Made by a program: the position numbers and the translations under genes. 64,000 nt of DNA from positions 62,001 through 126,000 of the forward strand of contig NW_023365886.1 of assembly GCF_000003815.2 (NCBI RefSeq), in the 5' to 3' direction. The notes below the pieces were generated by a model. The model had not been told where the DNA came from, made no database searches, and saw nothing but the letters and a program-made list of their open reading frames with translations. Shown piece after piece: positions 3,401 through 62,940 of this stretch (position 1 is its first letter; the number at the start of each line of letters is the position of its first letter). Origin of the DNA: Branchiostoma floridae (Eukaryota; Chordata; Leptocardii; Amphioxiformes; Branchiostomatidae).

Positions 3401-6400
3401 AGTATGGCTTCATGAAAAAAAATGCTGAACAGCAGCACTTTAAATCATCAGATCTAACAATATTTGCGGGTAGAGTAAACCATTGCACCATTGAGTTAAC
3501 TGTAAGAGCGAGTCTAAACCCTGTGTGTTCCTCCCCCAGGCGAGAGTCATCCTGTACAGCATGCTGCAGGAGGGAGGCCCGGCCCAGCGCTGGTTGGCGG
3601 CGCAGTGCCTGGCCACGGCAGGGGAGGTGGAGCCTCACATCGTCAGCGAGATCGTGTTCCAGCTGTTCAACACCAATAGCGACATGCGGCGCGACCAGGC
3701 CATCATCATGCTCAGCAAGATGAGCCAGAACACGGTACAAATATACGCCAAAATTTGTCAACTTTCAACTGTAAATCACTGTACCTAATCTTTTTCTTCA
3801 GGTATCTGTCTTACATTTCACTGTCTAATTACCTGCTACCTTTAATCATTATCTATATTTTGACTAGTTGCTCCACAATGTGCCGAGTATCACTGTGCAA
3901 AAGTATTTGTGCTTTAATGTGAAAGCTAAAATGCACATCAAGTTTGTGTTTTAGAATGTTAATGTAATGTCTTTAGCTTTGTATTTGTGGTCAAAATATG
4001 ATACAGACAAAATATTTCACAGTTGTTTAAATACATATTATTGAAATAGGTTTGTGTACAATTGTAACAGCACATTGTTCCCCTAGTCTAGTCAAACTGA
4101 CTGTATTTGCTGTTCTCTTCTAGACACTGGTACACTCCATGCTGGCAGAGCAGCTGAACAGCAGCAGCTGGACCAGGCGTGTGCTGTCCTGTAAGGTCAT
4201 CCCCAAGCTGTATGGGCCCATCAACAAGGTAACAGCAGAAAGCTAGCTTTTCACAGGACAGGAGTTGTTTCCTTTCAGCACACAGGTTGAAGCATTTCCT
4301 GGGCTGTATACTTTGTGTACATGAACATGATTCAGTAGATCCACCAATATTTCCATTTTGTACATCTACCAAACAGGAGATAAAGACTGCTTGGTCAAAC
4401 TGAGATTTTTTGCAAGGAATTTGTTTCACTAACTCTTTTGGTATAATGTTATTTTATCCTGGATTTTTCTATCTACCCATTCCTCAATCAATCCCGAACT
4501 GAAACATAGACACAGTCACTGATGTAGTCAGTTGAGCTCTTGTTGCCATAGTAACAGAGGTGACCCTGTCCCTCCTCAGGACCTGATGCACAAGCTGTCC
4601 ACCCTGATGTGGCATGACTGGAGCAGTGAGGTACGTAAGGCCGCCGCACAGACCCTGGGACGCACAGGTCACGGGAAGGAGGTCCACAACAACCTGCACT
4701 CACGTCTCACCAACGGCAACGAACGAGAGAAAATCGATGCACTGAACAAGATCGGCCACCTGGGTCCGTGAAATTGCACTTCACTTCCCTGTACATTAAT
4801 TGAGCCAGACTTCAATTCACCAAAATATTTTTTTGCATGTAGAATGTAGTGATTTGGACCCAATCATTACACAGATGGAATCATGGCTAGATATCTGATA
4901 AACTCCAGTCTGTCAGCAGCAAGCTGAATTCAGTTAGATGTCATGTTTTATGCTATACATGTGCACCTCTGACTGAGAGTCCTGATGTTTCACCTCCTGT
5001 ACATTAGCCTGCCTCATTGCCCTGTTCAGGAGGTCTCCTGCATTCTTTACTGTCCTTATAACACCACCTTCTCCTCATACCTTCTCATGCAGGCATCATG
5101 ACGGCCCGGCTGCTCCCCCCGTTCATGGAGTGCTTCCAGGACCCGTACATTTCCGTCCGGATCGAAGTCTGCAACACCGCCGGGCACCTCCGGATCACGG
5201 ACGACGCAGCACTCAACACGCTCCTGGAGATGGCGCAGTTTGACCCCTGCTGGAAGGTCAAGGCACACGCTATCCATGGTCAGTAGACAGAACTCGTTTA
5301 ATCAGCCTAAGAGCTAGTACCAGTATTTGTCTTTGAATCCATAATGGCTGTCACATTCAGCATGGTAAAGGGGTGGTGTGTAAGAAGTCAGAGGGGCGAG
5401 TAGAACAGAAATAAACAATATATACAAATATCCCGACCGACCCGGGAATCGAACCCGGGTCCTAAGGATCACAACACTAGCGGTCTAACTGATCGAGCCA
5501 AAAGCCTGACAGGCGTTTGGCATGGCCAGTTAGCACTACTTAAACCCCCCACTGTTACACTACTCCCCCTCTTCTTCTCAAGATTCGTCCTCGAATCTCC
5601 GAGTTCGAGCACCCTGTGGGCAGGCACATCTCCGGCCTGTTATCCACCAGGGCCACGTCGGGCGCCAATGTAAGAAGTCAGAGGGGCGAGTAGAACAGAA
5701 ATAAACAATATATACAAATATCCCGACCGACCCGGGAATCGAACCCGGGTCCTAAGGATCACAACACTAGCGGTCTAACTGATCGAGCCAAAAGCCTGAC
5801 AGGCGTTTGGCATGGCCAGTTAGCACTACTTAAAGCCCCCACTGTTACACTACTGTTACAGGTGACTGTCCAGTGTTTTTTTTTAATCTTATTTATTTCA
5901 TTTATTCCCCCCCCCCCTCCTTGTCATTAATTACCCTTTGTTTTGAGGATTTTTGACAGTAAGTATTCAAAAGAGAAACTGTGCATACATGTATCTAATG
6001 ATTTCCTGGATGCTTCACATGAAAGGTAACAGTTACTGTGTTAAACTTCTGCCAACATTTGAGGACTAATTCTTGTCAGTTGGACACAAACCCTAACTGT
6101 CCTTACTTCTGCATCAGCCCTTGGTCAGATTGGGATGATGACTGAAGAGATCGTGGAGAAGCTTCTCTGGGCGCTGAAGTACGACGACACGCCCGGCGTG
6201 CGGGCGCAGGCGTGCCGCGCCATCACGGAGCTGGGGCTCCATGATGAGGACGTGATCGCTGTTCTCCAGGACAGGACCATTGTAGAGCCTGACGACATTG
6301 TCAGAAGGTAACTGAACAAAAGGCTGTTCTATTTCAACCATTTTGTTCAGAAGTTTTGCCCTTCGAGGGGGGGGTTAGAAAAGCTGAACACATGATCTTA

Positions 6401-14769: not shown

Positions 14770-16210
14770 ATGTCAGCGGACTGCCCTGTAGAAGAAGATA
14801 TGAAGATGGCAGGCATGGGTCGGCGAGGTTTGAAGCTGAGTCAAATCAAGCCTCAGGAGGCTTACAGGTACGGTTTCCTGTCACATATCCGCTCAGAGAG
14901 AATATCGGTGGCCCATGTACTTTTTGGTCTAAGAAAAGTGTGTCAACACATTCGCTGTAGATGTATATTCAAAGACCAATTCTGTGACATCACAGCCCCC
15001 CTCCCCCATCTTGTGTTTTTCGATTCAGCTCTTCAGGTCTCATTGATGAGTTTCTTCTTCCCATAGACTTCTATGTATTAATTCGTGGTTTAAATGGGCG
15101 CCTTCATAATGAAGCTACGTGAAATTTCAGCAGATTTTTCATTCTATGTCGAGCACATTTACCCTATATCGTGGGAAAAAATTGCCAATGTAAACTATAC
15201 GTAGGAACTTTTTTTATAGCAATTACAAACTACGATTAGTCAATCCCCACAAAAGGCACTTTTTCGCTGCTATTGTACAACCGCACCACTCAGAACCCAC
15301 GACTGTGTACCTCCGACCTAGCGCGCGGCTGCAAAACTTTACCTGCTAATTTCTTCAGTTACAAATAAGCTTTCACCAATCTAACTTTTGAGATCATTTC
15401 CGCTGGCTAAAAGGGAATTTCTCACCGCTAAAAACATGTGTCCGTGCAGCCGTTCATTTTTGGCTCGGATCTCTTTTAGGGTCCCCACTCGCGGAGTAAT
15501 ACATCAATGAGACCTTCACTGCAACTGCAGAGGGTAGAGTGATTTTGTTTCGTGGCAAATGTGTTAAGAATAGTGTAAGATGTACACATTTTCCTGTATT
15601 GAATAACTCAGGTATCGAGATTGCATGTTTTTGTCTTAGATTCTCAAGGTCATGTAGCTGATGTAACAAATTATTCCATACATTTTTATGAACCTCATAT
15701 AGTATGCAGTGGTATCTATAGCTGAGGCAACTACGGCAAGGGAAAACGTTTTTACTTGTATGAAGTTGTATCATATACGGCAGGAAAACATACAGTATGA
15801 TATACGTAAATATGTTTCCCTTGCCGTAGTTGCCTCAGCTATTCTGGGCAGTTCCACTTCATGGCTACTAAACATAGCAGTTGGTTCTTTCCTTTATATC
15901 ATTGTTTTTCATACTCTGCAGTGATGCAGCCATAAGGACCAACAATGCAATCCTGGAGTTCTGCAGGACTTCCTTCTCAGGACTGTCCGGAGCCACGGCA
16001 GGTGTGCTGGGACTGACGGCCCTCTATGGATTCATCTTCTACTTTGTGGCGTCTCTGTTCATGTCCTTACTGCTGATCCTGAAGGCCGGCAGCAGCTGGG
16101 GCAGGTACTTCAAATCCCGCTGGAGGATCTTCACCAGCGGGCTGATGGGAGGACTGTTCACATACGTGTTGTCATGGACATTTGTGTACGGAATGGTTCA
16201 TGTCTATTGA
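14770..16210 (+). CDS. EMC6: ER membrane protein complex subunit 6
   Basis: Two coding exons, 14770-14867 and 15922-16210, join in phase to give 128 aa (the human protein is about 110). The second exon reads [17 protein letters not shown], then [39 protein letters not shown] and [20 protein letters not shown] at the C-terminus, a near-exact EMC6 core. Three hydrophobic segments fit its known topology. EMC6 is part of the ER insertase that places transmembrane domains and tail-anchored proteins. The start chosen is the first in-frame ATG (14770). Internal ATGs at 14800, 14806 and 14815 would give shorter N-termini nearer the vertebrate length. The N-terminal 30 residues are lineage-specific. 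Confidence 0.95.
15718..15842. mobile_element. 125-bp hairpin MITE in EMC6 intron
   Basis: A perfect 28-bp inverted repeat begins ATAGCTGAGGCAACTACGGC and ends in its exact reverse complement at 15842. The centre also pairs in part. It lies 80 bp before the EMC6 second exon. There is no coding content, and it is likely a foldback or Tc1/mariner-type MITE. Confidence 0.75.
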
Positions 16211-18198: not shown

Positions 18199-20098
18199 CT
18201 AGTTCTCCCCACCCTCCTCTGCCTCAGCTGCTGGCTCCTCTGCAGGGGCCTCATCACCCCCCTCCCCTTCAGTAGGCTCTTCCGCCTCAGCATCACCCTC
18301 CTCTGCAGCTGCCTCCTCTGCTGCTGGCTCTTCCTCTGTAGCGCCCTCAGTCTGTTCAGCTGGCTTCTCTCCTGGAGGTGGGAAAGAATTCAGATCAATA
18401 CACATAAAGAAGGAAAGCCAAAATGCAGTCAAACATGGTCTCGACAACCATGCAATGGGAAAAAAAATGGTTGCTCGCCAGCCTGTCAAAATCCCTACTG
18501 CTACTGATTTTGCCATGTGTATGGAGCAATCATCTGATCATCAATTTTGGTTGTCGGTTGGGGTATGAATGTAAAAAAGCGGTTGCTTGTTGCACAAAAT
18601 GGTTAGCAGAGGGTGTTAACTATGTAAAATTGGATGGGACTGTTTTAATGTGTTTCATGGCAATTAACTGAAATCATCTGGCTAAAAATCAGACAAACAG
18701 CATGTGCAAACATATCCTTGTTTGTGACTACAGTAGACTTGATAAGTTATAGGGTCCCTACCTTCAGCTTCCTCTGGTGCAGTCTCCCCCTCTGCTGACT
18801 CGGCAGGCTCCTCTGGCTCCTGAACAGCCCTGAGTGTGATGGGGGTGATCTTTCCTGCCTTCCACTTGGGGATGGTCACCATCATGGGCTCTTCCTCCTC
18901 CTCACCTCCAGCAGCCTTGATTCAAGCACAGATATTGAGTTAACCACCAATTAATGCTGTAGTTGCAACAAGTATTCAAACTACATGTACATGCATCCTT
19001 TTTAGTGATGATATTTTTAAGTACTTCCATGTAGTAATTACTGTCACAGTAACTCGTGGAAGGCTGAAACGTCCCTGTGCTTAACCTATGGAGGACTGGG
19101 TGTCTTTCAATAGACTTTTCTACAGATTAAGACTATGCTGTCACCAGCAGCAGAACTTTGTTACATGACACCACTCGTCTGCACCCACCTGTTCCACAGC
19201 GATGTATTCTCCGTGCTGTTCACAGCCGATGTCGAAGATGTACTTTCCTGGTCCAGATGGATGACCAGCCATGAAGCTCCCCTGGTAGCGATGGTTCAGA
19301 TGGACCATCTCCCCGGCTCCATCTGGCTTCCCATTCACCCACGTGCCTACATACTTGCTTCCTGTTTCCTTGTATGTGTATGTGCCTTGCCCATGTCTTT
19401 GATGGTTTTGCCACTCCCCTTCAAAAGTGTCTCCATTTACGTAGAAGTAGACGCCATATCCATGCCGTTGATCATCCACCCAGCTGCCTTCATACTTGGA
19501 GCCGTCCGGATAGATGAAGGTGCCCTGGCCATGCTTCTTACCCTTGATGTATTCTCCTATGTAGCGTGCACCGTTCTTAAATCTGAAAAGACAGATGCCC
19601 ACTTAGGATCGATGCCAAATGACCAATTTGGATGAAACGATGAAGAGGAGCAATTCAAGAATGAGACAAAGGGGCAACTTTGTGGGAAATAAGTAACGCA
19701 GACATCACATGTTGAGATCAATGTTTTTAAAAAATTGCTTTATGTTATTTCAAATATTAATACATCTAGGCATCAATCATGATATGGTCCCAACCTCAAT
19801 TTTGCATTTATCTATGGCAGAATGGCAAACTCTTTCAGGGAAAAGACAAATGAATGAATTGATGTGTAAAGTGAGCAATCTTAGCTGTGACTCTGAATTA
19901 CCAAACAGTTTCCTTGTACCTGTACGTGCCGGACCCGTGTCTCTTGCCATGTTCGTACTGCCCCTCGTATGTGTCTCCATTGGGGAGGGTGGCCTTGCCG
20001 TAACCGTGCCTCTCGCCCTCCTCGTTTCTGTCCCCCTCGTACTCTCCCAAATACGGCCCGGCCTCTTCCTCGAACTCCTCTGAGCCTATATCAGACAT
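18199..20098 (-). CDS. RSPH1: Radial spoke head 1 homolog
   Basis: Four coding exons, 19920-20098, 19189-19582, 18762-18915 and 18199-18371, give 299 aa (human about 309). The N-terminus [20 protein letters not shown] is typical. Six or so MORN repeats follow ([96 protein letters not shown]), then an acidic [12 protein letters not shown] segment and a long Glu/Ala/Pro tail. RSPH1 belongs to the radial spoke head of motile 9+2 axonemes, and its loss causes primary ciliary dyskinesia in people. The gene is divergent from ARF6. A possible RFX X-box lies about 100 bp upstream of the ATG. Confidence 0.96.
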
Positions 20099-20637: not shown

Positions 20638-21351
<714 letters not shown>

Positions 21352-60905: not shown

Positions 60906-61930
60906 TGTGAAAAGTTGTAAAAGGGCGCCCGGGCGATACTCAAAACAATGGTCCATTTCGAATTCGCTACGAAGGATTCCGTTTTGGTATATCCCGCGTT
61001 TTAAAATCCTATATTCATATCATGCAAAAACACTAACTGACTCTGTTTTAGACCATGATCGACTGCAGAAATTTGGTAAAAATAACTATCAACACTCCCC
61101 TACTTAGCTTTGTTATTTTCTTGGACTTATACCCCCCCCCCCCCCCAAAAAAAACGTGAACGCCTGCCGGTATTTGTTCATTTTCTAATCGGTTCAAAAT
61201 CCGGTCTACTGATTTCTTGGTTTTTCTGGACCAGTCCAACAAGAAAGAAACTCTGCAGTATTCTCACTGGACTGCCGTACAGATATATACGTTGGCGCCG
61301 TCGCTGCGTTCCAAACTGCATTTGTGTTACGCGTATGCTTGACTTTATGATAGGAATATCCTTCAATACATCACAAGTATGACTAGAAATACAACAAAAC
61401 ACACAAAGCGTACAAAGATTCGTCTTTTTATTGATGAAATTAATTCAGCGCTCTGTCAGATCGCTCTACCGCAGCGACGCCGCCAACGTACCGACGCTTC
61501 AGTGACCACACGTGAGACTTGAAATCTTAAAACTTTCTTGACAGTTTGGCAAAATACAGTAGGCAGGTTTGATGTAGGCGATCTTCAACGCAAAACGTAA
61601 AGTGATTTGCGCTACAGAAATCCAAACTAGAGTTCCACGAACACATACCTTTGCCAAATAAACTAAGTTTGTTATGTAGAATGGTGTCTGTAGACAAATG
61701 CGTTACTCATTTCATTTTGTTTTATAATTATATGCTTGGAGTTGGTTTGTAAAATTTCGGCATTAATTGTGCAAATTTGGTCCCAATTTACAATTAATCA
61801 ATATCAAATTGTATCAAGCATTGCTTAAGCTATCAGCATACCAAGCTATCAGCATACCAAGAATCAATTTCTTGACTTATTCTCTTTCAAAGTCTTTAAA
61901 TACACCCCTTATACTCTCTTTCCTCTTTCT

Positions 61931-62940
61931 CAGTTACATGTGTGACAACGTTGAAACTACTATAATGGAATGCAGTGGATTTATGAACTTTTCATAATCA
62001 ATTATGCAAATTAACTGTTAATTTGCATAATAAGTATCACATTGTGTAAGTCTTCACTTAGGCTATCTACATGCCAAAAATCGTGACGATCCGTCAACAC
62101 GTTCATATTTTCTCATTAATTATGCAAATGAGGTCGTCATTTGCATGATTAACATGTATTGCCATTTCTCTCCTCTCAGCTACATATGTGACAAGTTTCA
62201 AAGTCCTATCATGGAATGTAGTGGATTTATAAGATGTCCTCATTAATTATGCAAATTATCTGTTGATTTGCATAATTGGTATCTCATTATGTAGGTCTTC
62301 ACTTACGCTACCTACATACCAAAAAACATGATGATCCGTCAACATGTTCAAATTTTCTCATTAATTATGCAAATGAGGTCATCATTTGCATAATTGATAA
62401 CTATTGACATTTCTCTCCTTCTCAGCTACATATGTGACAAGTTTGAAAGTCCTATCATGGAATGCAGTTGATTTACAAACTTTCCTCATTAATTATGCAA
62501 ATTAGCTGTTGATTTACATAATTAGTATTTAATTATGTAAGTCAACACTCATTCTATCTACATACCAAAAATCATGAAGATCCGTCAACACGTTGCAGAG
62601 TTATTCTCGTCCAAAGTTTGAAAGGAAACCGGCGCCTGCAGTACCAAAAAAGCCGCTAGGGGGCCCAAACTCACAGCACATACTCTCTGCCCCGTGGGCT
62701 ATCTACCACCCATAAATCATGACCACAGCATGTCCAGAACACGAGATATAAAAAATTGAGTTTCCGCTGCAGTACCTTACCAAGCCGCTAGGGGGCCCAT
62801 TATCGAACTTGACCTTCGTTTTCCCGAACCCTACCCACCTACCAAATATTATCGGGATTCATCCAAGACTTCTTGAGTTATGCTGTTAACACACACACAC
62901 ACAGACACACACACAGACACACACACAGACTCACAGGCCC
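61931..62940. repeat. composite tandem repeat with 246-bp period and CACAGA tail
   Basis: Units begin at 61931, 62177 and 62423 (CAGYTACATRTGTGACAA), exactly 246 bp apart; the third is partial, to about 62597. Each holds TTAATTATGCAAAT and its inverse ATTTGCATAATT. A second module follows with two copies of the block CTGCAGTACC...AAGCCGCTAGGGGGCCC (62635, 62770). It ends in CTTGAGTTATGCTG and a (CACACAGA)n tail (62888-62930). Relatives lie at 28515, 31290 and 33040. Confidence 0.8.

Follow-up and report, generated by a model that had tools for sequence, protein, structure and literature searches.

Layout of the element

The window, a 64,000-nucleotide stretch of the Branchiostoma floridae genome, contains on its minus strand, between positions 5375 and 5864, a complete non-autonomous LTR retrotransposon, including both copies of a GGTG target-site duplication (5375..5378 and 5861..5864). 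Host coding pieces recognised by Pfam belong to EMC6 (15881-16207), a MORN-repeat protein (19141-19599) and an ARF-family GTPase (20773-21348), and a tandem repeat with a 246-bp unit (2.8 copies) occupies positions 61919-62594.

A repeat search of the window revealed a direct repeat (5379-5564 / 5669-5854) with 99% identity. Combined with copies fetched from the genome, it defined a family unit of 471 bp, in which two LTRs of 181 bp enclose a core of 109 bp; the window copy is 482 bp long. On the minus strand the 5′ LTR extends from 5669 to 5849, the internal region from 5560 to 5668 and the 3′ LTR from 5379 to 5559. The two LTRs of the window copy differ by one substitution in 181 bp, in agreement with the one or two differences noticed in the sequence-only reading of this DNA.

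The primer binding site (PBS) TGGCGCCCGACGTGG, of tRNA-Lys(CTT) type by sequence and by comparison with the tRNA, lies at 5653..5667 (minus strand). The polypurine tract (PPT) GAGAAGAAGAGGGGG (5565..5579, minus strand) is followed by AGTAG and then by the LTR. Beside the PPT there is a perfect short hairpin, AGATTCGAGGACGAATCT (5581..5598, minus strand), most of which falls inside a stretch common to related families. PBS, PPT, 109-bp core and GGTG flanks were all found where the earlier reading had placed them. Its bounds (5379-5860) were exact as well, though they include 11 bp that other copies lack.

These 11 bp (TGTAACAGTAG, 5850..5860, minus strand) adjoin the 5′ LTR, at the 5′ end of the element, and are peculiar to the window copy: they were absent from every other fetched copy. 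Nine of the 13 other near-full genome matches stop at base 471 of the 482-base query, the rest at 474-479. The extra bases sit inside the intact GGTG duplication, and five of them equal the AGTAG adjoining the PPT, which points to a misplaced plus-strand end with slippage as their likely origin.

Each LTR carries, on the minus strand, four further sequence elements. The B box lies at 5445..5455 in the 3′ LTR, where it reads GGTTCGATTCC, and at 5735..5745 in the 5′ LTR; the A-box-like motif lies at 5489..5500 in the 3′ LTR (TGGCTCGATCAG) and at 5779..5790 in the 5′ LTR. The palindrome GCCTGTCAGGC followed by TTTT occupies 5500..5514 in the 3′ LTR, where we propose that it serves as Pol III terminator and R region, and 5790..5804 in the 5′ LTR, where it would be the Pol III start region. 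Around the palindrome an imperfect inverted repeat of 49 bp (5485..5533 and 5775..5823) was recognised in the sequence and in the hairpin test described below.

Copies in the genome

The host assembly searched comprises 513,431,437 bases in 431 contigs. It contains at least 53 matches to the element, a count for which 40 of 672 first-look candidates were scored. A 20-base word of the LTR, GCCTGTCAGGCTTTTGGCTC, occurs 80 times, and its reversed control was not found. A pattern scan of viral contigs brought no hit. Target-site duplications (TSDs) were tabulated for 19 of the 40 loci L009-L048, picked because both outer ends were present. A 4-bp TSD flanks 17 of the 19 copies: 13 of 14 with two LTRs and four of five solo LTRs. 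The flanks of L026 and L027 are alike and may represent one insertion, in which case the two-LTR count becomes 12 of 13. The LTR pair is identical in six of the 14 copies compared and differs by one substitution in three more, including the window copy. The two-LTR copies have both PBS and PPT, and TG..CA ends were seen at many loci.

A single tRNA-headed unit was the alternative against which the LTR reading had to be judged. A tRNA-derived SINE (SINE2) is defined by a single unit with a 3′ tail, LINE-type TSDs of variable length and the lack of PBS and PPT, a combination that the window family does not show. That the repeat is a tRNA-headed SINE occurring in tandem by chance could draw on the tRNA-like head with its B box, but it is highly improbable in view of the many loci that show the LTR-core-LTR order together with PBS, PPT and TG..CA ends, the TSDs of fixed length, also at solo LTRs, and the inserts of primer tRNA at the PBS (see below). 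The fixed 4-bp duplications, the solo LTRs and the PBS and PPT favour the LTR reading over the SINE reading. The element is a TRIM, not a SINE, and the LTR interpretation, for which many genomic copies with 4-5 bp duplications and solo LTRs had been predicted, withstood this comparison.

The tRNA-like module of the LTR

TRIMs with tRNA-like LTRs have been named Helenus (Kojima 2024, PMC10886601). With default settings ARAGORN called no tRNA in the element, and Rfam gave no match, 5S included, at the gathering score. When the ARAGORN threshold was lowered, a tRNA-His(GTG) of 68 bases was called; a second, overlapping call looks spurious. Sub-threshold tmRNA matches (E 2.9e-6 and 1.2e-5) rest largely on the T arm. 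The tRNA resemblance of the LTR is real but degenerate, as it was missed at the default or gathering score and found only with relaxed settings; the suggested tRNA check of the LTR was thus negative in its standard form and positive in its permissive form.

The earlier description of a tRNA-like A box and a perfect B box in each LTR holds for the B box. Of the A box only the first half agrees with the consensus: TRGC fits, the final GG does not. The conservation of the A-box motif is 0.868 against an LTR mean of 0.923 (138 of 170 LTR windows are at least as conserved), and that of the B box, where it is present, is moderate (41 of 171). Most Helenus A boxes end in YGG (PMC10886601), whereas that of the window matches TRGCY, not YGG.

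These features bear on the possibility that the TRIM is transcribed from a Pol II promoter in U3 and owes its tRNA-like part to the remains of a SINE that inserted long ago. We regard this as unlikely. Consistent with a relic, the A-box motif is conserved below the LTR mean, the B box is wholly or partly lost in 10 of 65 LTR sequences, and 15 of 78 LTRs have a changed form of the TTTT described below. Against it, the B-box core GGTTCGANYC is found in 61 of 78 LTRs belonging to several families, GGTTCGATTCC is intact in all six copies with identical LTR pairs, and the palindrome with its T run keeps a nearly fixed place beside the A box. The first suggestion, that this is an animal TRIM whose LTR includes a Pol III module resembling a tRNA, is borne out by the many copies, their TSDs and the PBS and PPT, and we infer that the element is transcribed by Pol III.

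Two loci, L023 and L033, are head-to-tail LTR-core arrays. The LTR units listed for L033 have no B box, which suggests that this array may have expanded through recombination rather than retrotransposition.

The probable primer tRNA and antisense tRNA-Lys inserts

The PBS pairs with the 3′ end of tRNA-Lys(CTT) over 15 nt, including one G.U pair. A word consisting of the PBS and the next bases, TTGGCGCCCRACGTGGCCCT, has 26 exact copies in the genome (reversed control, 0). A genome pattern search for tRNA-Lys-type 3′ ends gave 16 matches with at most two mismatches (control, 1), and two of these places fall inside the Helenus loci L026 and L028.

In L026 an antisense tRNA-Lys follows the 5′ LTR directly: 69 nt could be aligned, with 8 mismatches, to the tRNA-like sequence of L157. 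The insert (393-465) is followed by a second LTR-end/PBS junction, and ARAGORN called a tRNA-Lys(CTT) at 388-460, over the insert. L028, which belongs to a different subfamily, retains 51 nt of antisense tRNA-Lys (380-448) with 4 mismatches, and the break points of the two inserts differ. L027 has Ns where L026 carries the insert. ARAGORN recognised no tRNA gene at either of the tRNA-like loci L157 and L158.

Antisense tRNA beyond the PBS is expected if plus-strand strong-stop DNA copied the primer far past the PBS and then switched template. To judge from their sequence and position, the inserts in L026 and L028 are likely to be a fossil of tRNA-Lys priming. A search of titles and the opening parts of abstracts, which cannot prove absence, found no published report matching such primer read-through.

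A palindrome followed by TTTT beside the A box

Just 5′ of the A box, 56 of 78 LTRs have a palindrome of 8-11 bp followed by TTTT, whose sequence differs between families. The 78 LTRs come from the 75 of 100 fetched element loci that passed the junction filter, and a palindrome was counted if arms of at least 4 bp abutted TTTT at LTR position 53-65. Elsewhere in the same LTRs the rate was 190 in 6954 positions. The main types were GGCTTAAGCC (n=21), GCCTGTCAGGC (n=16), GCTCTTGAGC (n=7) and GCACTAGTGC (n=5). By eye, 15 of the other 22 LTRs have a palindrome with altered TTTT (TTTA in eight), and seven are truncated, rearranged or mutated. The block is among the best-conserved stretches of the LTR: only 3 of 167 LTR windows were as conserved, and 5 of 167 in a divergent subset.

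Folding of the 62 nt around the palindrome gave a hairpin with a mean z of -3.3 (range -0.6 to -6.0) in 19 representatives, compared with -1.8 to 1.6 for other LTR stretches of six LTRs. For this test seven of 24 cluster representatives, truncated or rearranged in the region, were dropped and two others added. In 18 of the 19 at most 17 of 300 shuffles were as stable as the hairpin; in L102 the number was 75 of 300. RNAalifold predicted no pairs on the MAFFT alignment. When arms were swapped, the energies were -21.1 kcal/mol for own arms, -21.9 for arms of the same group and -17.3 for arms of other groups; with the diagonal ranking 47 of 720 this is only suggestive.

Eight of nine chosen loci were folded as modelled RNA (L050 had a single palindrome), and five of them entered a test of pairing between the 5′ and 3′ ends, with two assumed starts per copy and 60 shuffles for each. 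The window copy formed 32 and 28 pairs, numbers reached by 1 and 3 shuffles, and L020, of the window family, 24 and 19 pairs (2 and 5 shuffles). The values were 23 and 3 pairs for L062 (4 and 36 shuffles), 23 and 17 for L061 (8 and 13 shuffles) and 12 and 7 for L066 (19 and 36 shuffles). In these models the predicted panhandle stands clearly above the shuffles for the window family and is weak for two further families.

The palindrome and the longer inverted repeat may have been inherited by descent, for example from a fold-back at a SINE insertion, and have no function. We consider this a real possibility, somewhat short of an even chance. It would explain why the alignment gave no pairs, why swapping of the arms was only suggestive, why pairing of the modelled RNA ends was weak in other families and why 15 of 78 LTRs deviate from TTTT. 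It does not readily account for different sequences occurring at the same place with both arms matched each time, or for the difference in hairpin z between this region and the rest of the LTR.

Transcription of tRNA genes usually starts 10-20 bp before the A box, which would put both the start and the stop of Pol III at the palindrome with its T run. We offer, tentatively and with more doubt than belief, the interpretation that the palindrome and TTTT form one dual-use device. Pol III would start inside it in the 5′ LTR and stop at the full palindrome and TTTT in the 3′ LTR, so that no poly(A) signal would be needed to define R. The inverted-repeat arms would come to lie at opposite ends of the RNA and pair as a panhandle aiding first strand transfer. 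The copies with altered TTTT make this hypothesis slightly less probable.

In the life cycle that we propose, transcription by Pol III would begin in the 5′ LTR, at or within the palindrome that precedes the A box, and would terminate in the 3′ LTR at the TTTT that comes after this palindrome. The resulting RNA of about 300 nt would repeat about 10-18 nt at its two ends. First-strand synthesis would be primed by tRNA-Lys(CTT), and reverse transcription and integration would be carried out by proteins of an autonomous element, probably of Gypsy type.

Related families and the search for an autonomous partner

The PPT/LTR junction is common to related families and has 261 exact copies in the genome (reversed control, 0). 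A pattern made of the shared core end and the PPT gave 288 matches, overlapping ends being counted repeatedly, and none when reversed. The shared core motif is GAGGACGAATCTT and the LTR start TGTAACAG. Sixty sister loci were fetched: by the pattern used, 44 have a PBS of TGGTTCCCA type, which presumably resembles tRNA-Glu, three have another candidate and 13 have none. A manual count of the first 20 found 15 whose PPT is spanned by a direct repeat. A permissive automatic TSD search reported 4-bp matches for 32 of the 60 loci and was kept out of the evidence.

Flanks are shared with L055 on both sides in 11 loci and on at least one side in 14, L055 itself counted. The 11 loci are L055, L060, L071, L073, L083, L087, L092, L099, L100, L101 and L106, with flank identities of 94.6-100%. 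Loci of this group are thus not independent insertions; from their sequences, a single Helenus copy (TSD TTCC) seems to have been carried along in a different repeat that was itself amplified.

A PBS region in common with an autonomous Gypsy element counts among the Helenus features, and the sequence-only reading had proposed to look for a full-length Ty3/gypsy partner; none that has this PPT was found in the sample searched. For 40 of the 128 integrase matches listed, the 3.2 kb that follow downstream were examined, and the shared 3′ core motif was absent; LTR starts of TGTAA type follow G runs in several of these stretches and prove nothing. An exact search for the LTR-end/PBS pattern yielded no autonomous partner, and four pieces from the ends of the best integrase group were without a match. 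Inspected by eye, the odd PPT loci L069 and L070 have no recognisable Gypsy reading frames. An Integrase_H2C2 match at a distance of about 1 kb made the PPT hit C4:32563073 a promising candidate, yet this PPT is part of a further Helenus with about 98% similarity to L062.

Relation to known elements

The window element is a further member of Helenus, with the core structural features of that group. It has the tRNA-like A and B boxes in the LTR, the PBS and the PPT, the 4-bp TSD of animal Helenus, the putative tRNA-Lys primer, as in some Helenus, and a length (471/482 bp) within the published 311-1263 bp; tandem arrays (L023 and L033) are likewise known, from LTR-11_DR (PMC10886601). The design itself is already described, and the notion that it is an unprecedented counterpart of the plant Cassandra had to be given up. 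The lancelet host is absent from Table 1 of PMC10886601, and the main text of that paper nowhere mentions Branchiostoma, amphioxus, lancelet or cephalochordate. No earlier Helenus from a lancelet appeared among the papers listed in literature searches on Helenus and on TRIMs or LTR elements of lancelets; a 2026 meeting report, in the part seen, names Helenus in passing (PMC12859917).

Cassandra also has a Pol III-type promoter in its LTR, but one derived from 5S rRNA, and it is found in plants; the LTR of the window has no 5S match. According to PMC10886601, both ends of the Cassandra RNA fall in the 5S-derived portion, and the RNA has a terminal duplication of 18 bp; a super-hairpin fold has been modelled for the element (PMC7215508). 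Ajax, a nemertean TRIMp3 of similar size (421-434 bp), is an animal element, yet again 5S-derived, and has a 5-bp TSD (PMC10886601). The biv-TRIM of bivalves is an animal TRIM of similar layout with solo copies and tandem arrays; in the portion consulted its authors report no canonical PBS, and no tRNA-like part of the LTR is described there (PMC6934838). As for the proposed panhandle, the 5′-3′ complementarity of Ty1 RNA (CYC5/CYC3) offers an analogy only, since Ty1 is autonomous and its CYC5 lies downstream of the PBS, as given in the section consulted (PMC4974528).

The sequences show two LTRs, a tRNA-Lys-type PBS, a PPT, 4-bp TSDs, solo LTRs, many dispersed copies and identical or nearly identical LTR pairs. 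We are confident, short of certainty, that the window element is a Helenus-type TRIM (TRIMp3) of a 471-bp family with no coding capacity, whose LTR would carry a tRNA-derived internal Pol III promoter, with the proposed Pol III start and stop at the palindrome, priming by tRNA-Lys and borrowed proteins.

Three features go beyond the main text of PMC10886601, in which the strings hairpin, palindrom and TTTT do not occur: the shared PPT/LTR junction, the recurring palindrome with TTTT and the antisense tRNA-Lys beyond the PBS. The range of Helenus appears to reach lancelets. The captured primer tRNA is sequence evidence for tRNA-primed, LTR-type reverse transcription of such elements, and the recurring palindrome with its T run offers a possible account of how RNA ends are marked in an LTR element driven by Pol III.
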